NCBI GenBank assembly: GCA_022826805.1
Contig: JAJDUH010000047.1
Coordinates: 1-64,000, forward strand
DNA length: 64,000 nt
Direction: 5' to 3'
Origin: Candidatus Poribacteria bacterium
GTDB taxonomy: Bacteria > Poribacteria > WGA-4E > WGA-3G
Part shown: piece after piece, positions 10,825 to 23,600 of the stretch
Numbering within the stretch: the stretch's first letter is position 1
Layout: each line of letters begins with the position of its first letter
The notes under the pieces: model-generated
What the model saw: the letters and a program-made list of their open reading frames with translations, nothing else
Told to the model about the DNA's origin: nothing
Databases searched by the model: none
Translations under genes and position numbers: made by a program

Positions 10825-13800
10825 CTACCGTTCACGAATCCAGCGTTCAACAGGATAGAAAAGGGAAAATAGCACGGGTGCCAAGATAAGGTTAGCCACT
10901 GTTGCCGAGACCATACCGCCGAAGGTAGGGACCGCGATGGGCTTCATCAATTCTGCGCCGGTGGTAGTGCTGATCTCTGCTAACATGATTGGTAATAATG
11001 CCAAAACCGTGGTCGCTGTCGTCATGATAATTGGGCGGACGCGTAACAAACCGGCATTGATCACCGCTTCGTCAATTGGTTCACCGCCTCGGACTCGTTC
11101 CAGCAAGTATTCAATCAAGACTATCCCATCCTCGACAGCTATACCAAATAAGGCTATGTACCCCACCCATACCGCCGTACTGTATTTAATGGCGTACCCA
11201 CCACCAAGTGTATCAGGCACGTATGCCATCAACCATTGCATCCACATACCACCGATAAACGCGAAGGGAATTGCAAGGAAGATCGAAAACATCGCAGAAG
11301 GTGATTTGAATTGGAGATATAGCAACATGAAAATAACAACAATACACACCGGAACGACAATCCTCAATCGACTGCGGGCTTCCAGTTCTGCTTCATACTG
11401 TCCACTAAAAGCGTAGAAGTAACCTTGGGGCAAAGTTGGCTTAATTTTTTCATCAAGCGTCTTTTGGGCTAACGCGACGAAGTCAACCAGTCCAATAGTG
11501 TCAACATCCACATCACAAAAAACACGAGAAAAGAGGAGTGTATTTTCGCTCGCGATTTTCGCAGGTCCCGGTCGTCTTTCAATTTTTACGAGTTGCTCAA
11601 GTGGAATATGTAGCCCTTTTGGTGCTGGCACGAGGACGCGCTTAAGCGCTTCAATATTATCCCGCAATTCTCTCATGTAGCGAATACGAATCGGAAATCG
11701 CTCCCGTCCTTCAACGGTATAGGTTAAGTTCATACCACCGATTGCTGTCATGATAACCTGTTGCACCGTTCGGATTTGGATGCCATAGCGCGCCGCTTCT
11801 TCTCGGTCAATGTGAAATTCAAGATACGGCTTATTTCCAATGCGCTCGGCATACGGACCCTGTGCTCCCTCAAGTTTGAGGAGTTCCTGCTCAATCCGAA
11901 CCGCAATTTCCTCAATCTTCGCGAGGTCTTTACCAAAGACTTTAATTCCGATTGGGGTTTGTATACCAGTTGCCAGCATATCAACGCGATTGCGTATCGG
12001 TTGAGTCATAATAGGCGAAACCCCTGGCATTCGAGTAGCCTCCGTCAGTTCGGCGATGAGTTCGTTGCGGTTCTTCGTCTGGAAATAAGTTTTATGCTCA
12101 AGGGTAGGTTCAATCTCCTCGGCGATCCGATGAAGTTTCGACTCAGTCTCAGCCTCCCCTATTCTAACGTGTTCCAATCCCATTCCTTCCATCCGCTTCT
12201 CAGCGAGGAGTTCTTCCAAAAGGATCCGTAAAAGCCAGATGCGATAAAGCTTCTCGCGCTCGTCAACCGACAGATAAGAATTGTGATATGTTGTCGCTAA
12301 GGTATCGAACCGTTTCGCGGTTTCTGTAACAATATCATCCAGAAAGTCGGCATTAATATGACTGGCATGTTCCTCACTCATAAGTCCGTCGCGTACTAAA
12401 CGCTGGACTAAGTGAGACACAAATTCCCTTGTTGCGCCGTGTTTAATCGCTCGTCGAGGCCACTCTGCCGGATCAACTATATTGACGATAGTTTCAAACA
12501 TGCCAATTGGGGCAGGATCGGTTGCTGTCATTGCTCGTCCTAATTTTCCAACCACAAGTGAAACCTCTGGGAATCGGTTCATAATCAAATCCTGCTTCGC
12601 CATAACATCTTTTGCTTGCGTAATTGAGGCACCAGGGAGCAGCACGGGCATAAATAGCAGGGCCCCCTCGTTAAGTGGCGGCATGAATTCTTGACCGATA
12701 TTTTTGTAGAACGGGGTCAGCGGCATGCTTGCAAGAAAAAGCAGCACCGCTATGGCGACAACAGCGAGTTTAGTCCAAATATTCTTCACAGCCAACCGAA
12801 TAATCGGACGATAGGCAGTTCTGAGTATCCACGTAATCCCATCCGCTAACTTTCTCAGGGGCCAGCCCAGTAGTGAAAGCAGTCGTGCCGTCCACTTGGA
12901 AACCGTCCCTGTCGGGGTACGGGTCGGGTCAGTGAGTAGAAATGATGCCAAAACCGGCACGAGACTAATCGCTAAAAGAGCCGCACCAAGCATAGCGAAA
13001 GTTTTTGTATAGGCAAGCGGTTTGAAAAGTTTACCAGCCTGTCCGGTAAGCGAAAAAACAGGTATGAACGCAACAATAATAATGAGCATGGCAAAGAAGA
13101 TAGGCGGTCCCACCTCTTTAGCGGCACGGGTTGCGACCTGAAGTTTGCTTTCGCCTGTGTGTGGCTCCCGTAAATGACGCGTGATATTTTCCGTCATTAC
13201 AATACCGGCGTCTACCATGACGCCTACCGCGATGGCGATCCCGCCCATCGACATGATATTCGACGGTAAACCAATAATCCGCATACCAACAAACGAAAGC
13301 AGAACACCCATCGGTAAGACAAGTGCTATTATCAAACTACTTGAAACTTGTCCTAAGAAAAGCAGGATAACAACTGCTGCAACGATGATTTCCTCTGTTA
13401 GCGTCTCCTTCAGTGTGTCCGTCGCGCGGTGAATAAGATCGCTCCGGTCATAGAATGGGACAATTCGAACACCTGCGGGGAGCCCCGGGGTGAGTTCCGC
13501 TATTTTCGCCTTGACGTTCTCAATCACTCGCAGTGGATTATCACCGTAGCGCATCAGTACGACCCCACCAGTTGCGGGGATGCCAGCCTTGTCTAAGGCA
13601 CCGCGCCGGAAATCGGGACCTTCGCTGACCGTTCCAAGATTCTTAACGTAGATAGGAACCCCGTTATGCTCTTTGACCACGATGTTTTCTATGTCCGTGA
13701 TGCTTTTAATAAAGCCCAAACCACGAATCAGAAATTCCATTCCACCTTCTTCAATAACCTTTGCACCGACATCAAGGTTGCTCCCACGAATAGCATTGTA

Positions 13801-14493
13801 AACCGTTGACAATGGCACGTTATACGCCAATAAAGTGTTCGGATCGATGTCAATCTGATACTGTTTGACGTATCCACCGACTGAGGCGACTTCTGAAACG
13901 CCATCAGCGGAGGCGAGATAATAACGAACCGTCCAGTCTTGGAGCGTCCGAAGTTCATGAAGCTCTAAATTGGAAGCAACGAGGGGTTCTCCACTTTGTG
14001 GACATCTACCAGGTTCCGCATAACGTTCTGTCGGATGTTTAGGGCAATAGTATCCATTTTCAACGGTATACCAAAATACCTGTCCAACCCCGGTCGCATC
14101 GGGTCCGAGGATTGGTACAACACCCTCTGGCATCTCTTTTTGCGCAAGATTCATTCGCTCCAGTACCCGTGTGCGTGCCCAATAGAAATCAACATCATCT
14201 TTGAAGATGATGTTAATGTACCCAAAGCTAAACATTGAAGTCGAGCGAACATCTTTGACATCAGGAATCCCAAGCATGGTAATACTCAACGGATAGATAA
14301 CCTGATCCTCAATATCTCGTGGACTCCGCCCGGGCCAATCAGCAAAGACAATAACTTGATTTTCACCGATGTCAGGCATCGCATCAATTGGTGTTCGGTT
14401 CAATGCCCACCAACCCGCTATTGTTACGAACACAAAGATAACCAATACCAACAGACGGTTTTTCATACAGATTTCAATAATTCGGTTAATCAT
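10825..14493 (-). CDS. cusA: RND heavy-metal efflux pump, CusA/CzcA family
   Basis: About 1222 aa inner-membrane proton/metal antiporter of the heavy-metal RND family. The N terminus (INRIIEICMKNRLLVLV...RTPIDAMPDIGENQV) and the transmembrane helix with GGIAIAVGVMVDAGIVMTEN are diagnostic. Unlike E. coli CusA, a small cysteine/histidine ribbon is inserted after FWYTVENG (about residues 145-185, YYCPKHP...PGRCPQSGEP). It resembles the heavy-metal-binding domain of the neighbouring adaptor but has lost the CGM half. A helical segment after residue 640 is also longer than usual. ATG 14493 is preferred to an upstream GTG at 14505. Last pump component of the operon; copper or silver is the likely substrate given the Met/His-rich partners. 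Confidence 0.92.
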   Translation of the reverse strand: MINRIIEICMKNRLLVLVIFVFVTIAGWWALNRTPIDAMPDIGENQVIVFADWPGRSPRDIEDQVIYPLSITMLGIPDVKDVRSTSMFSFGYINIIFKDDVDFYWARTRVLERMNLAQKEMPEGVVPILGPDATGVGQVFWYTVENGYYCPKHPTERYAEPGRCPQSGEPLVASNLELHELRTLQDWTVRYYLASADGVSEVASVGGYVKQYQIDIDPNTLLAYNVPLSTVYNAIRGSNLDVGAKVIEEGGMEFLIRGLGFIKSITDIENIVVKEHNGVPIYVKNLGTVSEGPDFRRGALDKAGIPATGGVVLMRYGDNPLRVIENVKAKIAELTPGLPAGVRIVPFYDRSDLIHRATDTLKETLTEEIIVAAVVILLFLGQVSSSLIIALVLPMGVLLSFVGMRIIGLPSNIMSMGGIAIAVGVMVDAGIVMTENITRHLREPHTGESKLQVATRAAKEVGPPIFFAMLIIIVAFIPVFSLTGQAGKLFKPLAYTKTFAMLGAALLAISLVPVLASFLLTDPTRTPTGTVSKWTARLLSLLGWPLRKLADGITWILRTAYRPIIRLAVKNIWTKLAVVAIAVLLFLASMPLTPFYKNIGQEFMPPLNEGALLFMPVLLPGASITQAKDVMAKQDLIMNRFPEVSLVVGKLGRAMTATDPAPIGMFETIVNIVDPAEWPRRAIKHGATREFVSHLVQRLVRDGLMSEEHASHINADFLDDIVTETAKRFDTLATTYHNSYLSVDEREKLYRIWLLRILLEELLAEKRMEGMGLEHVRIGEAETESKLHRIAEEIEPTLEHKTYFQTKNRNELIAELTEATRMPGVSPIMTQPIRNRVDMLATGIQTPIGIKVFGKDLAKIEEIAVRIEQELLKLEGAQGPYAERIGNKPYLEFHIDREEAARYGIQIRTVQQVIMTAIGGMNLTYTVEGRERFPIRIRYMRELRDNIEALKRVLVPAPKGLHIPLEQLVKIERRPGPAKIASENTLLFSRVFCDVDVDTIGLVDFVALAQKTLDEKIKPTLPQGYFYAFSGQYEAELEARSRLRIVVPVCIVVIFMLLYLQFKSPSAMFSIFLAIPFAFIGGMWMQWLMAYVPDTLGGGYAIKYSTAVWVGYIALFGIAVEDGIVLIEYLLERVRGGEPIDEAVINAGLLRVRPIIMTTATTVLALLPIMLAEISTTTGAELMKPIAVPTFGGMVSATVANLILAPVLFSLFYPVERWIRER

Positions 14494-14593
14494 GTTTTCT
14501 CTCACTTCTTGTAAGTGAGCTTTGCCAACTCAATCTGCACTTACGAGTGATTCTATGCTCACAACTCCAGATCAAGACTCAGGAACCCTTAGG

Positions 14594-16438
14594 TTAATGT
14601 TGATGGGCAGGTGCTTTTGATTCTTCACCACCGAGTGCCCCACCATACGCACCTGACGCGGCGCCTGTTAACTGCGTCTGCGAATCTATCAAGAAGTTAC
14701 CATGGGTGACAACAATATCATCAGGAGCAAGCCCACTAACAATGGGATAGTATCGGCGCTTGGTTTTTGAGTCGTCCGATATTCCCCAAGCTTCGGGACC
14801 CACTTCGATTTCAATCTGTTCATAACCCGACTCGCCGCGATCCACGAAGACGATCTTCCGTAAACCTGTGTCAATCACCGCACTTTTAGGGACTGTTAAG
14901 ACCTCACCCGTCATGAGGAGCGGCTTGCCATCATGTGGACACAGACCCGGCACAGTCGAGTACTCATCCGGATTGTCAGGACACACGTATTTGAAAATTA
15001 GGGCCGGTAGATCTGAACGGACTATAGGCTGATGTGCGTGGAAATGGGCATCAGTTCCTACTGTTGTTAGCTGTTTTTCAACGAGATCCATACCACAGAT
15101 AGAACATTCACCGAACTCATCAGATTGCTCTTCTGGATGCATCGGACAGACCCACACAGACGCTGTCGTCTCTGCCGGTGTAGATACCTCTGCTTTTTCA
15201 ACGAGATCCATACCACAGATAGAGCATTCACCGAACTCATCAGACTGAACTTCTGGATGCATCGGGCATAACCACTTCCCCTCCGTTTCAGACGCCGATT
15301 CAGTCCCAATGACATCGTTATAAATTTCTGCAAGCGACGGTTTTATTTGAAGCGTCACGTACATCCCTGGACGGAGTCTGCCAGTCAGATTGGGAACTTC
15401 TATCTGGACCTTTTGAGTTCGCGTTTGTGCGTCAAAGAATGGATAAATGTAAGTAACCTTGCCAGAAAACGTCAGTCCCGGCATCGATTGCGCAGTAATT
15501 TCAACCGCTTGCCCCATATAAATCCACGGTAATTCATATTCATAAACGTCTGCCATAATCCATAAATTATCGAGATCAGCAATGCGGTAAAGATGCATAC
15601 CTTTGTTCACATATTGACCCTGCATAACGTTCATGTGAACCACAGTGCCAGCTATCGGTGCGAAAAGCGGTAAAGCTGTACTGACTTCTCCGCGGTTGCG
15701 GATATCTTCAATTTGACTTAAGGTTAGTCCATACAATTCAAGTTTGGATTTTGCAGCGGTAACGGTCTGTTCAACTGATCTGCGAAGTTCGACGTATTCT
15801 GTATTTTTAAGTTCCTCAATGCTTTTAAGTGCTGTTAAATACTCCTCTTGTGCCGTGACCAGCTCCGGGCTGTAGATAGACAAAAGTTCATCACCTTTAC
15901 GCACTTTGATACCCGTGAAATCAATGTGCAAGTCCTCAATCCATCCAGAAATTCGCGTTGAAGCATAAGCCATACGGGTTTCGTTATAATCCAGCACACC
16001 AACAGCTCGAATCTCACGAGAGACCCCGCGGAAAGCAACAGGTTCAGTCCGCACTGGAATCAGTTCCTTCTGCTGCTCAGTTAGTTCCAGCCCTGAACCT
16101 TCGTAAATAGGAATCAGATCCATATTACAAACCGGACAATTGTCAGATTCCGGCATCTTGACCGTGGGGTGCATAACACAAGTCCAATACCGAATTGCTT
16201 TTGTTTTATCCGAGGATGTCTCCATCGGAGCATGATCAGCATGTTCATCCATTGCCATCTCAAGATTTTCATTTGAAGCATGGTCGGCGTGTTCGTCCAT
16301 GCCTGACATATCCTTTGATTCTGTTTCAAGTTCTTCACTTACATGCTGTTTCATTTCAACACGCTCTTGTTGACTACAACTGAATATGAAAAGAATGGTA
16401 ATGAGCAGTGTAGTTGCGAGGCAGAAATTTTTAGGCAT
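14594..16438 (-). CDS. cusB: RND periplasmic adaptor, CusB-like, with four metal-binding ribbons
   Basis: 614 aa membrane-fusion lipoprotein (signal MPKNFCLATTLLITILFIFSC, lipobox FSC). The mature N terminus carries two MDEHADHA-type Met/His clusters. Then come one ribbon (WTCVMHP...CPVCNMDLIPI), the adaptor body with barrel-sandwich and beta-barrel segments, two nearly identical ribbons (WLCPMHP and WVCPMHP, both ending CSICGMDLVEK) and a degenerate fourth (YVCPDNP...CPHDGKPLL). Ordinary CusB has none or one such domain. It links the inner-membrane pump to a TolC protein and can hand over Cu(I). A clear AAGGAG precedes the chosen ATG; about 90 bases separate it from the pump gene. Confidence 0.9.
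   Translation of the reverse strand: MPKNFCLATTLLITILFIFSCSQQERVEMKQHVSEELETESKDMSGMDEHADHASNENLEMAMDEHADHAPMETSSDKTKAIRYWTCVMHPTVKMPESDNCPVCNMDLIPIYEGSGLELTEQQKELIPVRTEPVAFRGVSREIRAVGVLDYNETRMAYASTRISGWIEDLHIDFTGIKVRKGDELLSIYSPELVTAQEEYLTALKSIEELKNTEYVELRRSVEQTVTAAKSKLELYGLTLSQIEDIRNRGEVSTALPLFAPIAGTVVHMNVMQGQYVNKGMHLYRIADLDNLWIMADVYEYELPWIYMGQAVEITAQSMPGLTFSGKVTYIYPFFDAQTRTQKVQIEVPNLTGRLRPGMYVTLQIKPSLAEIYNDVIGTESASETEGKWLCPMHPEVQSDEFGECSICGMDLVEKAEVSTPAETTASVWVCPMHPEEQSDEFGECSICGMDLVEKQLTTVGTDAHFHAHQPIVRSDLPALIFKYVCPDNPDEYSTVPGLCPHDGKPLLMTGEVLTVPKSAVIDTGLRKIVFVDRGESGYEQIEIEVGPEAWGISDDSKTKRRYYPIVSGLAPDDIVVTHGNFLIDSQTQLTGAASGAYGGALGGEESKAPAHQH
15073..15267. repeat. Tandem duplication inside the adaptor gene (period 120 bases)
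   Basis: Bases 15073-15147 and 15193-15267 are almost the same sequence, exactly 120 bases apart, and encode the two near-identical heavy-metal ribbons of the CusB-like adaptor. The few differences suggest a fairly recent in-frame duplication. Confidence 0.85.
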
Positions 16439-16539
16439 TTTGTGAACTCCTTGTATTGTGTGTTGTAATCTTGTCGGTGAATACGAGACTTTCAAAGGAA
16501 TTAGCAATCGATGAACACCAAAATTTTATGGAAAAAAGG

Positions 16540-18240
16540 CTACTCCTGTGCTAACGCCTGTTTGGGCAATATCATGCCAACCGCCTGTTCTAACTGTGCA
16601 AGATGTTGACGATAATCGTGCAAGGCGCGCTGTTCTACAATCCTCAAATTTAATAAAGTGCGTTGTGCGTCAAGAAAACTCAAGAAATCAATTTGCGCTG
16701 CCTGATAGGCTGTATTCGCCGCATCCAATGCTTGCCGCGCTTGCGGAAGCAGCGTCTGACGATAGAGGCGAATAGTCCGATTCGCTGTCTCCATCCCAAA
16801 ATGATGTTTTTTCACAACAAAGCGGATACTACTTTCAAGTTCCTCAATGCGGTGCTCCATCGCTTCAATTTTCACATCCATTTCATGGATGTACGAATTT
16901 CGATGTCCGAACCATGCTGTATTTGCTGGATTCAAAGTGCGTTGCGTCATAAAAGTCATCGGCATTTTTTGTGTGTGTTTCAAGTCCGCTATGGCTCGGT
17001 TTTCAAAGTAACTTGCCCCAAGAGTCGGATCAGGATACGTCATCTGCTTTGCCATTTCTACAGCCAAGGTCATCTTACTGATTGTTAACTTCTGTTTTTG
17101 GATTTCCTGACGTTTCTGAACTGCCAACTCATACAACTCAGCCAAAGTATGGATAACGCGATCTTCTTCAATTGGCATAGGGACTCCTAACGACAAATCT
17201 GTAGAAGTGTTCAATAACGTATTAAGGCGCGCAATAATAGTTTCCCGTTGTTGTTCAAGTGTAATAATAGCATCTGCTAATTTCGATAACTCCACTTGTG
17301 CGATAATAACGTTTGAATATTTCCCCTGTCCAACACGAAACTTCGCCTGTGCAATAGCAATCATCTGTTGCAGTAATTCCTGATTTTCCTCGTTAATACG
17401 GGTTGCCTCAATCACAAAAAGGTAATCGTAGTAAGCCAATCGAATTTCAGTCGCCAGATCCCGCAGAGCGATTTCAAATTCTTTTTGGGCGATCAGTACG
17501 TCTTCAGTGACAATTTGCCCCTTCAGTGTCAAGGTGCCGGGGAACGGAAATTTCATTGCCATCATTTCTTTATGGCTCAGCGGTCCAGTTTTCGTATCAA
17601 GTTGTTTCGTGAAAACATTATACTGACGCAACACATTTTCTAAGTAGGCAGCTTGTGGATATTGTTCCAGGACCGCCCGAATTTTTTCACGAGCAGATTT
17701 CAAACCCGGATTCCATTCATATCCGAGTGCTATAAGGAGTTCCAACTGAATAGACTGAGCAAGCAGTGTTTTCGCTTCTTCAGGGGACGCCGCCAATTGC
17801 CGATAGGCTTTCACGGTGTCCGTTGAAAGATCATAAAATAGATCTGGCACTGGTATTTCACTCTCTAATTGAGTTTGCCACTGCTGCCGGTATTTCAATA
17901 CCTTCGTTTCAATCTCGCTGAGAAACTCGTCTGGTTCCAGAAGCGGTTCGCTCTCAGTATTAGCAACCTGTTCTTCTACTTCCGTATGGTAATACGCTGG
18001 TTGTTGTAGGTCCGTGTCACGCAATTCTTGGTACGTCTCCAATTGGTAATTCGCACAACCGCCTACCAAAACAGTGAGCACTATGAGGCAGATGAATAAG
18101 GTAAAACGACTCTGCCAATGACGCAAACTGCGGCGATATAGTATGTTTGCAATAGAATTGAGTCCGACGCGCTTAAAAAGCACAACTATAAGGGCAAACA
18201 GATATTGCAATCTGCCTCTACTGCACAGTCGGTGAATCAT
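16540..18240 (-). CDS. TolC-family outer-membrane efflux lipoprotein (second copy)
   Basis: About 566 aa. After a long N-terminal stretch comes a hydrophobic segment ending in a lipobox (TVLVGGC, about residue 67), then a TolC-type repeat of long helices and strands: FPFPGTLTLKGQ, AQAKFRVGQGKYSN and a C-terminal DFLSFLDAQRTLLNLR block. It forms the outer-membrane channel of a tripartite pump. The ATG at 18240 overlaps the end of the upstream paralog by 23 bases; the signal sequence lies unusually far from it, so the true start may be further inside. The second of two tandem TolC genes in this operon. Confidence 0.82.
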   Translation of the reverse strand: MIHRLCSRGRLQYLFALIVVLFKRVGLNSIANILYRRSLRHWQSRFTLFICLIVLTVLVGGCANYQLETYQELRDTDLQQPAYYHTEVEEQVANTESEPLLEPDEFLSEIETKVLKYRQQWQTQLESEIPVPDLFYDLSTDTVKAYRQLAASPEEAKTLLAQSIQLELLIALGYEWNPGLKSAREKIRAVLEQYPQAAYLENVLRQYNVFTKQLDTKTGPLSHKEMMAMKFPFPGTLTLKGQIVTEDVLIAQKEFEIALRDLATEIRLAYYDYLFVIEATRINEENQELLQQMIAIAQAKFRVGQGKYSNVIIAQVELSKLADAIITLEQQRETIIARLNTLLNTSTDLSLGVPMPIEEDRVIHTLAELYELAVQKRQEIQKQKLTISKMTLAVEMAKQMTYPDPTLGASYFENRAIADLKHTQKMPMTFMTQRTLNPANTAWFGHRNSYIHEMDVKIEAMEHRIEELESSIRFVVKKHHFGMETANRTIRLYRQTLLPQARQALDAANTAYQAAQIDFLSFLDAQRTLLNLRIVEQRALHDYRQHLAQLEQAVGMILPKQALAQE

Positions 18241-19573
18241 CGATCTTTCCCCCAACAAGCTGCTCCAACCGCGCCACATTCTGCTGATAGTCTGCAATCG
18301 CACGCAGGCGAGCGAGATTAAAATTCAACCAAACGCTCTGCGTCTCAAGAAACCCTGCAATGCTTTTGGGACCTTCTTGATGCCACGTCTCAGCCAGTTC
18401 AATCGCAGCACCCGCTTGTGGAATAAGCGTATTTTCATAGAGTTCAACGAGTCTCCGTGCGTTTTCAAGACGAAAATAAACCTTCCGGAGGGCAACCCGC
18501 GTTGCATCTTCAAGGGAATGTTTATTCGCTGTGACAACTTCTTGATTCTTCTGAGCCTCTCGAACTTTGCTACTGTTCTTCAAACTCGACCACGGAATTG
18601 TTACACCGATACCGATTGTAAATGGATCTTTACCACTATCAGGGGCATCCATCATCAATGCTTTCCCCGTCTCTATTGCCATTAAATCAAATTTAAGCAT
18701 TGGTTTGGTCTGGAGTTCTGCAAGTGCGATACCTTCGGTGGCTTTCTTGATGCTCAATTCGGCAATTCTCAACTCCTGCCGTTTTGATAGTGCCTGTTTT
18801 TCCACATCGACTAAGGGTATACCAAGCGGCTCATAAAGCACAGGGACGGTTGCACCAAGCGGTGTTTCTGAAGGAACAGATAGGATACCATTGATGTTAG
18901 CATGTTCAACGAGTTGTAATTCCTTCAGGAGGATAAGATCATATTCCAATTGTGCGAGTTGGCTTTGAGCCTTCAGCACATCATTGAGTATCGCTTCCCC
19001 TTCGGCATAGCGCGCCGTGGCAATCGTGAGAATAGAAGCCACCAGATCGTGATTTTGTCGCGTCAACTCGACCGCTCGCTGGAGATACGCCAATTCGTGG
19101 TAGCTCAATTTCAGTTCAACAATGAGATCACGTATCACCTGCTCATGCTTCACACGCGCAATCTTAATTGCCTTTTTGACAACCTCTCCGGCTGCATCAA
19201 GGGTGCCGGGATATGGAAATGTTTGTGAGAAACTAAGCCGATGGCGTTGAGGTCCGACCCGTGTCTCCACGCTTCGCATGTAGTAGCCGTACATGAACAT
19301 CGGATCGGGCAACGCTGTCACTTGGGGATACTGTTCAATTGTTGCCTGCCACCGCGCTTTCGCGGCTCTGACTTTTGGGCTCCGCTCAACGGCAACTCGA
19401 ATTAAGTTCGGCAATTCAAGCGTTTCAATGAACTGGGTTGTCACATCAGTTTGCTCCACAGTTGACGTTGTCTGAGTCATTCCGTATGTTTCTGTTTGTA
19501 CCAGAGCATCCAACATTAGCATGCTTCCGATAACAACTCCTACTACTTGGTAGAGTAAACTAATTCCTCGCAT
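18218..19573 (-). CDS. TolC-family outer-membrane efflux protein (first copy)
   Basis: 451 aa CusC/TolC-like channel with a signal peptide (residues about 5-25). Two outer-membrane-efflux halves are visible: LPNLIRVAVERSPKVRAAKA with FSQTFPYPGTLDAAGE, and a second half ending with AGFLETQSVWLNFNLARLRA. AAGGAGAC precedes the ATG closely. It overlaps the second TolC gene by 23 bases, so the two are translated from one mRNA. The copies have different lengths and only one is a lipoprotein, so they may serve as a mixed channel or for different pumps. Confidence 0.88.
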   Translation of the reverse strand: MRGISLLYQVVGVVIGSMLMLDALVQTETYGMTQTTSTVEQTDVTTQFIETLELPNLIRVAVERSPKVRAAKARWQATIEQYPQVTALPDPMFMYGYYMRSVETRVGPQRHRLSFSQTFPYPGTLDAAGEVVKKAIKIARVKHEQVIRDLIVELKLSYHELAYLQRAVELTRQNHDLVASILTIATARYAEGEAILNDVLKAQSQLAQLEYDLILLKELQLVEHANINGILSVPSETPLGATVPVLYEPLGIPLVDVEKQALSKRQELRIAELSIKKATEGIALAELQTKPMLKFDLMAIETGKALMMDAPDSGKDPFTIGIGVTIPWSSLKNSSKVREAQKNQEVVTANKHSLEDATRVALRKVYFRLENARRLVELYENTLIPQAGAAIELAETWHQEGPKSIAGFLETQSVWLNFNLARLRAIADYQQNVARLEQLVGGKIDDSPTVQ

Positions 19574-19786: not shown

Positions 19787-20419
19787 CTAAAGTGAAATCT
19801 TGACAGATGGACTTGTCACGCGAATGCGAACCTTACGTTCTTCACCTTTTGGCATAACGATGAACCCTTCGTAGGTGCGGAACATCTTGCTATATTTTAG
19901 CAATGCCATTTTCGTCTCGCCTTTGGCATTAGTAACCTGAAGAGCGAGTTTAACATCGCCTAACTCGATCTCCCCGTGATCTTGTATCGGGTACACACTG
20001 AAATAGTGCGTTTTTCCCTTAATCGCATCGGCTTTTATCATGCCTCCCATTCCCATGTGAGACATCATCATTTTGTAGGCATCTGTAGTTAGTACATTGA
20101 GATCAAACGTCAAACTTCCCACGGAGATTGTTTGGAGGAACTTATCTGGATTTGCTTTGAACATCTCCGCCTGCATGTCGTTGCAGACATAGTAGGCTTT
20201 TCCATCCTGTTCAACCTTGACCATTGCCGAAGGCTTCATCATCATGCCATAAACTGCGCAGCGCACTTTTTCATCATCCCCTGTCATGTGATCGCCGTGA
20301 TGATGGGCACTATGCTCTTTGTGAGCGTCTTCTGCATTAAGCGAAAAAACTGAGAACAGCACCGCGACAGCAATTGCTAAGAAAGATGCGACGATGTGTC
20401 GCGTTAATTTCGTGTTCAT
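19787..20419 (-). CDS. Exported YHS-domain, His/Met-rich metal-binding protein
   Basis: 210 aa. A signal peptide (residues about 8-28, ending SLNAED) is followed by a His-rich stretch (HKEHSAHHHGDH) and a YHS-type domain, VRCAVYGMM...AYYVCND...FKANPDKFL (about residues 52-95). Such domains bind copper or other soft metals through paired cysteines. The C-terminal half is Met/His-rich at first (MMMSHMGMGGMI) and then looks like a beta-sandwich. Its place between TolC and barrel genes suggests a periplasmic copper carrier for the Cus-like pump. AAGGAG lies near the ATG. Confidence 0.8.
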   Translation of the reverse strand: MNTKLTRHIVASFLAIAVAVLFSVFSLNAEDAHKEHSAHHHGDHMTGDDEKVRCAVYGMMMKPSAMVKVEQDGKAYYVCNDMQAEMFKANPDKFLQTISVGSLTFDLNVLTTDAYKMMMSHMGMGGMIKADAIKGKTHYFSVYPIQDHGEIELGDVKLALQVTNAKGETKMALLKYSKMFRTYEGFIVMPKGEERKVRIRVTSPSVKISL

Positions 20420-20550: not shown

Positions 20551-21609
20551 TTAAAATGAATAGGTTGTGGTGAAAGAAACCAAATTCCCAAATTCAATCG
20601 CATCGCCTCCATCATAAAGCGTTTCTTGCGTCAACGGAAACATGACGTTCGCGGACACGACAATACCATCTAACGTTGCCAAGGACATACCCAATGCCGC
20701 CATGGTGTAACGCATCCCGGTATTGATATCGCGCTCGCTATCCCAAGCGGCAGCGGATTGATAAAATCCGAGATAGTTCCCGTTAAACGAAAGCCAATCG
20801 AAAAGCCGATACATAAAGCCCCCTGTATAGCTTAACTCCACTGGCCCCCGATAAGTCTCGCTGTTTTCATAGAATGGAAACATTCCACGTGCGGAAGCAG
20901 TAATAGTCACACCTGGGTAGAGTGGTAGACTGTACCGCAGATTAGCAATGGGATTAAAGGTGCCAGTCCCGAACTGGATATGGAGGTGTTCAATACCTGC
21001 ATCTCCAAGTTTCCACGGATTTTTCTCAGTTCTGCCGACTGGAATCGTCGTGCCGAACCGAGTTAACAATACGTCTCCGGTCTTAAAGAGTCCATGAAAT
21101 TTGTAGCCTAAAAACAAATCTGAATCGGCAAGTCCGGTATAGGTTTCATTCCGATGATGAATATCTCTACTCCGCAAAATGGCCTGCTCATCCTCAGCAG
21201 TTACTGGATCAAGCCATTCAATATTCGCCTTTTGGTCTTTGACTGCGTATGGAACATTTGCCTGCAACGTCCATCGATCATTAAGCAGATATTGTAATCC
21301 AACATCAAACCGGTAAGTACTCAACCTTACACGATGCCTATGCAAAGGAGCATCTATTACCTTTCCTGTCGGTGAAAGTCCTGTTGACGCAAGGTGTCCA
21401 CCTCGGGCATCAGGTGACATCAACATATTGACATTTACTCGAAATCGTTCCATCTCTTTTGAAGCCAAACTGACTTCACTCATCATACCGCTGGGCGGTA
21501 AGACAGGATTACTTCAAGCAGGACAACTCTCTTGAGCAAATCCGAAAGAGATAAAAACCCAATTCAATAACAGCGTGCCTAAAAGTAGGCGCATATTTCT
21601 ATTCTGCAT
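20551..21609 (-). CDS. Exported beta-barrel protein with in-frame UGA (possible selenoprotein or nonsense mutant)
   Basis: The reading frame from ATG 21609 (or ATG 21594) encodes a clean signal peptide (MRLLLGTLLLNWVFISFGFA-QES), then Cys-Pro-Ala, then UGA at 21514-21516. After that the same frame runs on without a stop for 320 codons. The body (RFRVNVNMLMS, RLSTYRFDVGLQYLL, FLGYKFHGLF and a final TTTYSF) is a typical outer-membrane barrel with a C-terminal aromatic residue. Starting only at ATG 21486 would leave a barrel with no export signal. Reading UGA as selenocysteine gives a CxxU redox-type motif next to the mature N terminus; otherwise it is a one-base nonsense mutation, perhaps of an original CPAC. 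UGA is a normal stop in other genes here. Confidence 0.6.
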
Positions 21610-21799: not shown

Positions 21800-22237
21800 C
21801 TAAATAAATGGAGGACCTCTACGGGATAGGGGGTGGTCGGGGAAAAACGTAGAGGTTATTAAAGGTACAGGGAGAGTCTGGAACGACTCCTGCGATACAG
21901 CAGGTAAAGTTGCCGAGACAGGAAGAATTGAGACGAGAGACTGTCCGATTAATTCACGGAACTCGGACGAGCTGTATCTGTCGTCTGGAATCACAAGTTC
22001 TAAATCAGTTGAACAACACGGCTTACCGCTTTCTGATGGAACCTCGGAGTCACCTGCCGCGCCTGCTTTGGGACTTTGGCAGCAGATTGAGTGAGTTTGA
22101 GTATTTTCACTCAAGATTTCTTGAGACACATCGTGGCAGAACTTTTGTTCTAAAGTTGCACAGAGGAACGGACATATCGAATAAACGTATAAGAGTCCCA
22201 GAAGTACAATGAGAACTTGTTGATATTTCTGTAACAT
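21800..22237 (-). CDS. Small cysteine-rich membrane/exported protein, first gene of the metal operon
   Basis: 145 aa. An N-terminal hydrophobic segment (residues about 7-25) is followed by a Cys/His-containing part: CPFLC, KFCHD, HSICC and KPCCS. The C-terminal half is hydrophobic-rich and ends in RRGPPFI. No family is recognised. Position directly behind the strong operon promoter and the paired cysteines suggest metal binding or sensing at the membrane. The Shine-Dalgarno site (GGAG) is 11 bases from the ATG. Confidence 0.6.
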   Translation of the reverse strand: MLQKYQQVLIVLLGLLYVYSICPFLCATLEQKFCHDVSQEILSENTQTHSICCQSPKAGAAGDSEVPSESGKPCCSTDLELVIPDDRYSSSEFRELIGQSLVSILPVSATLPAVSQESFQTLPVPLITSTFFPDHPLSRRGPPFI

Positions 22238-22640: not shown

Positions 22641-23600
22641 ATGCCATATATTAAGATTCCAAAGGGATGGGAAATCCCGGAAAATCAGGCAACATCTGAG
22701 TCAGACTATATCAATCGTCGGAAATTTATCAAAGATTTGGGCTTGGCGAGTGCCGGAGCGTTACTATTTTCGGGTTCAAATGCTTGCGCCCAAGAGAGAG
22801 GCGTTGAAAAGCAATTAGTACCCTACCGTGCGCAAAAACTTGCTGCTACAAATAACACCGCCTTCACCGTAAAGAGACAGATGACTGACGAAGTCGTTGC
22901 TGCTACTTATAACAACTACTACGAATTTACGACTTCCAAGAGTCGCGTTTGGCAAAAAGTGGAAAAATTCAGAGCACGTCCGTGGGAGGTCGAAATATCG
23001 GGACTCGTTGAAAAGCCGATGACTTTGGACGTGGATGACTTAATCAAACAGATGCCGCTTGAAGAGCGAATCTATCGATTCCGTTGCGTTGAAGCATGGG
23101 CAATGGTGGTACCATGGATCGGTTTCCCAATGAAAGCACTACTTGAAAAAGTTCAACCCAAAGCTGATGCTAAATACGTTCGTATGCTCACATTTTTGGA
23201 CCCGGATATGGCACCCGAACAGAACAACGCTCGTCTACCGTGGCCCTATTTTGAGGGACTCACACTCGCTGAAGCCATGAATGACTTGACCCTGCTCTCT
23301 GTCGGCATTTACGGGCATATTTTACCACCACAGCACGGTGCCCCTATTCGACTCATCGTACCTTGGAAGTATGGATTCAAAAGCATTAAATCCATTGTCA
23401 GTATCGAGTTAACCGATCAGAAACCACGGACTTTTTGGAACACACTTATACCAAGAGAGTATGACTTTGAAGCAAACGTCAATCCTAATGTCCCACATCC
23501 GCGCTGGTCACAAGCCAGTGAAAGAATGATCGGAACCGGGAAGAGACTACCGACCATGATTTACAACGGCTACGGTAGCTCAGTCGCACATCTCTATTAG
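22641..23600 (+). CDS. msrP: Periplasmic methionine-sulfoxide reductase catalytic subunit MsrP
   Basis: 319 aa molybdopterin enzyme that reduces oxidised methionine in periplasmic proteins. A twin-arginine signal (NRRKFIKDLGLASAGALLF) is followed by the sulfite-oxidase fold. The cysteine that binds molybdenum is in YRFRCVEAWAMVVPW (about residue 152), and MsrP-specific blocks LPPQHGAPIRLIVPWKYGFK and WNTLIPREYDFEANVNP are present. AAGGAGAAAG ahead of the ATG fixes the start. The usual heme-membrane partner MsrQ is not adjacent. It is divergent from the metal-export operon, which fits a role against copper- or chlorine-driven oxidation. Confidence 0.95.
   Translation: MPYIKIPKGWEIPENQATSESDYINRRKFIKDLGLASAGALLFSGSNACAQERGVEKQLVPYRAQKLAATNNTAFTVKRQMTDEVVAATYNNYYEFTTSKSRVWQKVEKFRARPWEVEISGLVEKPMTLDVDDLIKQMPLEERIYRFRCVEAWAMVVPWIGFPMKALLEKVQPKADAKYVRMLTFLDPDMAPEQNNARLPWPYFEGLTLAEAMNDLTLLSVGIYGHILPPQHGAPIRLIVPWKYGFKSIKSIVSIELTDQKPRTFWNTLIPREYDFEANVNPNVPHPRWSQASERMIGTGKRLPTMIYNGYGSSVAHLY

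Follow-up and report, generated by a model that had tools for sequence, protein, structure and literature searches.

A family of outer-membrane barrel proteins in Candidatus Poribacteria with an in-frame UGA that very likely encodes selenocysteine

A review of May 2026 lists 119 families of prokaryotic selenoproteins, among them two outer-membrane barrels (a TonB-dependent receptor of the FCYXU type and the GSU2204 family) and one protein of copper and zinc efflux (SO_0444) (PMC13188914). The TonB-dependent receptor (NF049945) resembles the protein described here in being an outer-membrane barrel selenoprotein with a CxxU motif (PMC13188914), but it belongs to another barrel family, no UxxU form is listed for it, and its model is matched neither by our protein nor by its 54 relatives. 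The GSU2204 family of MtrB/PioB-type barrels (NF041027) is likewise an outer-membrane barrel with selenocysteine (Sec), but it is listed with CXXCH and without a Sec motif, and the present family does not match its model; the MtrB_PioB model (PF11854) was matched by one of the 55 family members, with an E-value of only 0.034. The Sec form of the SO_0444 family Cu/Zn efflux transporter (NF033936) shares the link to copper and zinc efflux, but is listed with UxC and gave no match with the family. Two Sec residues in metal-linked proteins, as in the UxxU members described below, occur in the UxxU metal-binding protein (NF041115) and MbdU (NF045648); neither of these models was matched by the present family, which differs from them in being an outer-membrane barrel.

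The same 12-strand barrel and a similar mature length of 270–320 residues are found in the COG4313 channels (Pput2725, TcpY) and FapF (PF13557), but these are 11–14% identical to our protein. The COG4313 channels described so far have a link to hydrophobic compounds, FapF has one to amyloid export, and the relevant sections of PMC4493636 do not mention Sec in the COG4313 channels. The crystal structure of a COG4313 channel shows the segment preceding strand 1 tucked into the barrel, which it nearly closes, and there are relatives with longer segments of this kind (PMC4493636); the equivalent stretch of the present family carries [CU]xxU.

The family fits none of the 119 catalogued selenoprotein families (PMC13188914), NCBIfam of June 2026 gave no convincing model match for any of the 55 members, and a literature search on Poribacteria and selenocysteine returned general mentions only. 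The [C/U]xxU barrels form a selenoprotein family that is strongly supported by comparative sequence data and was found in no catalogue searched.

The window, i.e. the whole stretch of 64,000 nucleotides analyzed, derives from a Candidatus Poribacteria MAG that comprises 80 contigs and totals 5.09 Mb. The gene and its parts are the following:

20551–21609, minus strand: very likely selenoprotein gene, encoding an exported 12-strand outer-membrane barrel with a CPAU motif (stop TAA 20551–20553)
21535–21609, minus strand: signal peptide, codons 1–25 (from the translation; helix 2–17 in the structure model)
21514–21525, minus strand: C-P-A-U motif, Cys29 to Sec32 (in relatives UGAU 70, CPAU 36, CSAU 1)
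21514–21516, minus strand: in-frame TGA, codon 32, very likely decoded as selenocysteine (all 107 homologs have TGA)
20554–21444, minus strand: beta-barrel domain of about 12 strands, with invariant His72, His90, His92, His151, His152, His208 and His210

The minus strand of 20551–21609 translates as MQNRNMRLLLGTLLLNWVFISFGFAQESCPA-TGA-SNPVLPPSGMM...TTYSF, followed by a stop. The sole internal stop in this frame is the TGA at 21514–21516, after which 320 codons run up to the TAA, the barrel protein having 352 residues in total. Both ATG 21609 and ATG 21594 are possible starts, and the orthologs open with MKMRLF.... The CPAU motif directly follows the signal peptide and makes up residues 4–7 of the mature chain. 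Decoding of the codon-32 UGA as Sec is very likely, and so is the explanation as a whole, a Sec-containing exported channel with a CPAU motif. Comparative sequence could not make this decoding any more certain, and direct protein or selenium evidence is lacking.

The barrel family was searched for in all 85 genomes of the phylum and was found in 67 of them. The 107 members readable at codon 32 include orthologs with 76–100% identity and relatives with 37–60% identity, representing several families of the order. All of them have TGA at this position, and the neighbouring codons vary almost only synonymously. Ala precedes the UGA in every member, encoded by GCT in 28, GCG in 50, GCC in 23 and GCA in 6. 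At codon positions 1, 2 and 3 the minor base had a mean frequency of 0.007, 0.000 and 0.236 in codons −8 to −1 of the 36 CPAU orthologs and of 0.042, 0.000 and 0.192 in the ten codons after the UGA, as compared to 0.52, 0.50 and 0.49 upstream of the gene. One reading frame is under purifying selection on both sides of the UGA. The conservation of the UGA and the codon-position variation are incompatible with a nonsense mutation, a sequencing error or a separately translated barrel.

A stop interrupting the frame would be expected if a CPAC site had recently suffered a nonsense mutation, if the gene were a pseudogene or if a base had been miscalled, and some family members are truly decayed (G055 has a TGA at a Trp codon, and the copies in G019, G028 and G047 are broken). 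This alternative is all but excluded by the presence of TGA in all 107 members, by the independence of the assemblies sharing it, several of which are made of one to three contigs, by the purifying selection on both sides, and by the absence of a functional CPAC relative from the phylum in a profile search. In that search (an alignment of 55 members against 83 genomes of the phylum) every full-length match had one or two internal TGA codons, except the G055 member, in which a Trp codon has become a third TGA. Not one full-length match lacked an internal TGA, no all-Cys (CPAC/CxxC) member was found in the phylum, and the second motif position was never Cys. A Cys homolog at the second position is the usual confirmation of a Sec codon; none was found in the phylum, the only one covered by the profile search. 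A search with the single protein against genome contigs found only the near relative L014, and plasmids and viral contigs searched for the family gave no matches.

Family copies that have decayed or are frameshifted lie at G055:C5 (L048), G047:C1:1198170-1198804, G028:C2:632522-633145 and G019:C20:9090-10115. In L048 the further TGA replacing a Trp codon is a true nonsense change, in contrast to the conserved UGA.

The first motif position was Cys (TGT or TGC) in 37 of the 107 members and a second TGA in 70, the family motif thus being [C/U]xxU. Most members read S-U-G-A-U-S-N-P, a UxxU form with two Sec codons nine bases apart, and both stops of the UxxU members were verified as TGA. Every sampled family of the order that carries the barrel family has the UxxU form. 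In the source genus each genome typically has one CPAU copy and one UGAU copy; the second family gene of the source genome (G000:C45:1145-2227; L045; L093 1145-2227) has two in-frame TGA codons in QDS-U-GA-U-SNP. Two copies in genome G026 (L062 on C18, L065 on C357) are 87% identical and have UGAU and CSAU, respectively, representing a recent exchange of Sec and Cys at the first position with the second UGA kept. The barrel tree, a quick one with uncertain root, requires two or more changes at the first motif position.

The UGA could also be a true stop ending a 31-residue leader peptide, e.g. a regulatory leader, with the barrel translated separately from ATG 21486. This ATG does lie shortly after the UGA, and hairpins close to start codons can regulate. 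However, a barrel started there would have no signal peptide, roughly one in three CxxU orthologs has TTG, CTG or GGG instead of the ATG, and no ATG stands at that position in the UxxU members. The codons between the UGA and ATG 21486 are also conserved at the protein level, almost every member having SNPxxP, and the in-frame spacing is constant over 37–100% identity. Such an internal start is very unlikely.

The machinery for Sec was detected in the source genome: selA (589 bits), selB (333 bits), selD (361 bits, with an in-frame TGA of its own) and tRNA-Sec (78 bits, with the cut-off at 47), which begins 150 bases after selB. In the phylum, selA exceeded the cut-off in 72 of the 85 genomes. 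The barrel family is carried by 67 genomes, 58 of which had selA above the cut-off and two more of which had selA fragments; the absence of selA from the remaining ones is about what the stated incompleteness of the MAGs predicts. As a separate observation, selD (L011, G000:C45:41287-42210) itself contains Sec, with one internal TGA (KCAG-TGA-ASK) followed by a hairpin with the loop AGG.

Reassignment or suppression of UGA to Trp or Cys would equally result in an open frame. Against this, TGA is a normal terminator here, ending 9 of the 46 long frames of the window and 18 of the 104 family genes, and the genetic code is therefore standard; dedicated Sec machinery with tRNA-Sec is present, and no member has Trp at the aligned position. 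This alternative is all but ruled out.

A preliminary description, made from the sequence alone, had placed the frame, its TGA and the 320 codons that follow at the coordinates given above, with the UGA at codon 32 as the only interruption, and all of this was confirmed on re-reading. Its Sec reading is now strongly supported by the machinery and by the conservation in homologs. Of the checks that it proposed, the search for sel genes found selA, selB, selD and tRNA-Sec, and the comparison of homologs at codon 32 found UGA in 107 of 107, with Cys or UGA three codons earlier. It had named missing Sec machinery, reads with a Cys codon at this place, and homologs without any conserved residue there as refuting the reading; none of these was met. 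The alternatives it allowed, a fresh nonsense mutation of CPAC and a base-call error, are excluded by the conservation across independent assemblies.

In the proposed mechanism SelB and tRNA-Sec would decode the UGA, helped by mRNA structure just downstream. Almost every member has two hairpins after the UGA:

21486–21500, minus strand: hairpin A, UACCGC-CCA-GCGGUA, the SECIS candidate of the preliminary description (stem of variable sequence in relatives)
21460–21478, minus strand: hairpin B, UGAAGUC-AGUUU-GGCUUCA, the better SECIS candidate, with loop N-G-U-N-N (107/107 members)

When the protein was kept fixed and the codons were redrawn synonymously, only 0.9% of the recodings folded as well as the native sequence in CxxU genes and 7% in UxxU genes. 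The mean z of fold stability against the recodings was −2.94 (CxxU) and −1.94 (UxxU), while control windows of the same genes gave −0.55 and 0.12. All 107 members had a hairpin of type B with the loop N-G-[G/U]-N-N, which occurred in 122 of the 1067 control windows. The stem pairs of hairpin B co-vary (GAAGUC/GACUUC, GAAGUU/AACUUC, GAGGUC/GGCCUC), the compensatory changes using synonymous codons (GUC..GAC to GUU..AAC; GAA..UUC to GAG..CUC), and the pair closing the loop changes from A-U to G-C. The most distant member, L064, has a stem of wholly different sequence in the place of hairpin B. The hairpins are conserved beyond what the protein requires.

For bacterial SECIS elements the rule is a G in the first two loop places and a stem of 4–16 bp, with 16–37 nt from the UGA to the apical loop for most elements, and a subset of known elements fails the model (PMC13188914). 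Hairpin B meets the loop and stem rule in 107/107 members and fails the spacing, which is 42 nt here and 39–45 nt in 105/107 members, i.e. 2–8 nt too far. Hairpin A begins at the 14th base past the UGA (21500–21486), as had been described; its spacing of 19 nt is within the range, and its loop CCA breaks the loop-G rule. The earlier SECIS proposal held in part: the CCA hairpin is real and has the usual spacing, but its loop violates the rule, and the better conserved hairpin B, which had gone unmentioned, is the better candidate. Possibly hairpin A, lying in between, shortens the effective distance to hairpin B, but this is an untested inference.

The neighbours of the gene point to metal handling in the CxxU branch:

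21800–22237, minus strand: upstream, exported Cys-rich protein of 145 aa, no known family (beside 35/37 CxxU genes)
19787–20419, minus strand: downstream, exported YHS-like protein with a Pfam match below threshold (beside at least 21/37 CxxU genes)
10825–19573, minus strand: rest of the metal efflux operon, with two OEP (CusC-like) proteins, a CusB-like adaptor with HMBD repeats and a CusA/CzcA pump

The operon continues after the barrel gene in the order YHS-like, two CusC-like, CusB-like and CusA-like, the CusB-like adaptor having three heavy-metal-binding repeats. Nine of the CxxU genes without a YHS-like neighbour have a YtkA-like gene beside them. One UxxU gene (G028) is in a row with Cys-rich and YtkA-like genes; the remaining ones have mixed neighbours and lie mostly outside metal operons, and copper may therefore not be the general substrate. 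That of the source genome (G000:C45:1145-2227) is between an aldo/keto reductase gene and a peptide-binding SBP_bac_5 gene.

Elsewhere in the window, a divergent gene for MsrP, a periplasmic methionine-sulfoxide reductase (22641–23600, plus strand), adjoins the copper operon, and 26684–28514 holds bacterial microcompartment genes (a BMC shell protein, a PduL-type phosphate propanoyltransferase and a PDU-like protein).

In the AlphaFold2 model (pLDDT 82.5), built with 55 sequences, a signal helix is followed by a stretch without structure up to residue 55 and then by about 12 strands; confidence is low in the N-terminal stretch (pLDDT <50 at residues 19–31 and 44–52). The nearest solved structures in Foldseek were FapF and the Pseudomonas putida COG4313 channel (4rl8, 5o65-68; E 1e-12 to 1e-9, TM 0.5–0.7), and a sequence search of the PDB gave no match. 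The protein scored 16 bits with PF13557, below the curated cut-off of 22, and weak matches to this model were obtained for 19 of the 55 members. Domain scans of the family found no thioredoxin-like or cofactor domain. Outside the motif the mature protein is almost devoid of Cys, and seven His are invariant. According to our own reading of the predicted strand map, made without inspecting coordinates, His72, His90 and His92 would be in the outer halves of strands 1–2 and His151/152 and His208/210 in outer loops. By analogy with the COG4313 channels the N-terminus may be in the barrel lumen, but this concerns a low-confidence region of the model.

The product would be an exported outer-membrane channel with Cys-Pro-Ala-Sec near its mature N-terminus. 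The selenol/thiol pair would form a plug binding a soft metal, such as Cu(I), or forming a selenenylsulfide or diselenide, and metal or redox state would thereby control the channel; alternatively, the motif may hand metal between the periplasmic carriers encoded by the neighbours and the outside. The metal- or redox-responsive plug is inferred, without binding or conductance data, by analogy from the lumen-closing N-terminus of COG4313 channels and from the seven invariant His in strands and outer loops, and we propose it tentatively, as somewhat less likely than not.

An equal rival is that the protein is a selenoprotein whose CxxU/UxxU faces the periplasm and serves as a redox centre, acting in electron hand-over or in the chemistry of peroxide, selenite or disulfides, with no part in metal binding or gating. 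It is favoured by the view that most CxxU/UxxU selenoproteins are redox proteins (PMC13188914), by the CxxU-bearing TonB-dependent receptor already catalogued, and by the location of UxxU members mostly outside metal operons. Against it are the lack of a thioredoxin-like or cofactor domain in the family scans, the position of the motif in a segment buried in the lumen of related channels (PMC4493636), the tie of the CxxU branch to metal genes, and the invariant His, which suggest a metal site. This reading, too, is somewhat less likely than not.

Returning to the plug, a bolder reading is possible: an unlisted family of outer-membrane channel selenoproteins, in which a lumenal N-terminal plug with Cys-x-x-Sec or Sec-x-x-Sec would sense or carry soft metal, the second Sec would be obligatory with no Cys form, and recoding would depend on a two-hairpin element, hairpin A shortening the distance to a conventional hairpin with a G-U loop.

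According to a recent survey, Cys homologs seem to exist for every known selenoprotein, and its method may miss selenoproteins that lack them (PMC12013277); the present family may have been overlooked for this reason, i.e. because methods based on Cys homologs miss families lacking them. The family would escape both homology filters that demand a Cys relative and SECIS scanners with a limit of 37 nt, and annotated genomes therefore probably carry it in the form of a truncated barrel. Outer-membrane selenoproteins are few and without known function, and the tie to a Cus-type operon suggests a role for selenium chemistry in copper handling that is directly testable.

Two further barrels, L096 (2749-3810) and L097 (1372-2400), with 27–32% identity, were rejected as members, as they represent another barrel family that starts with APIGVMGDHGH and has no Cys motif. 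Bacteroidota barrels with Cys-rich starts beside copper genes may be distant Cys analogues. L096 and L097 are related barrels of the same phylum in which the start APIGVMG(D/E)HGHK replaces the Cys/Sec motif, and they are possibly a His-based metal counterpart of the present family.
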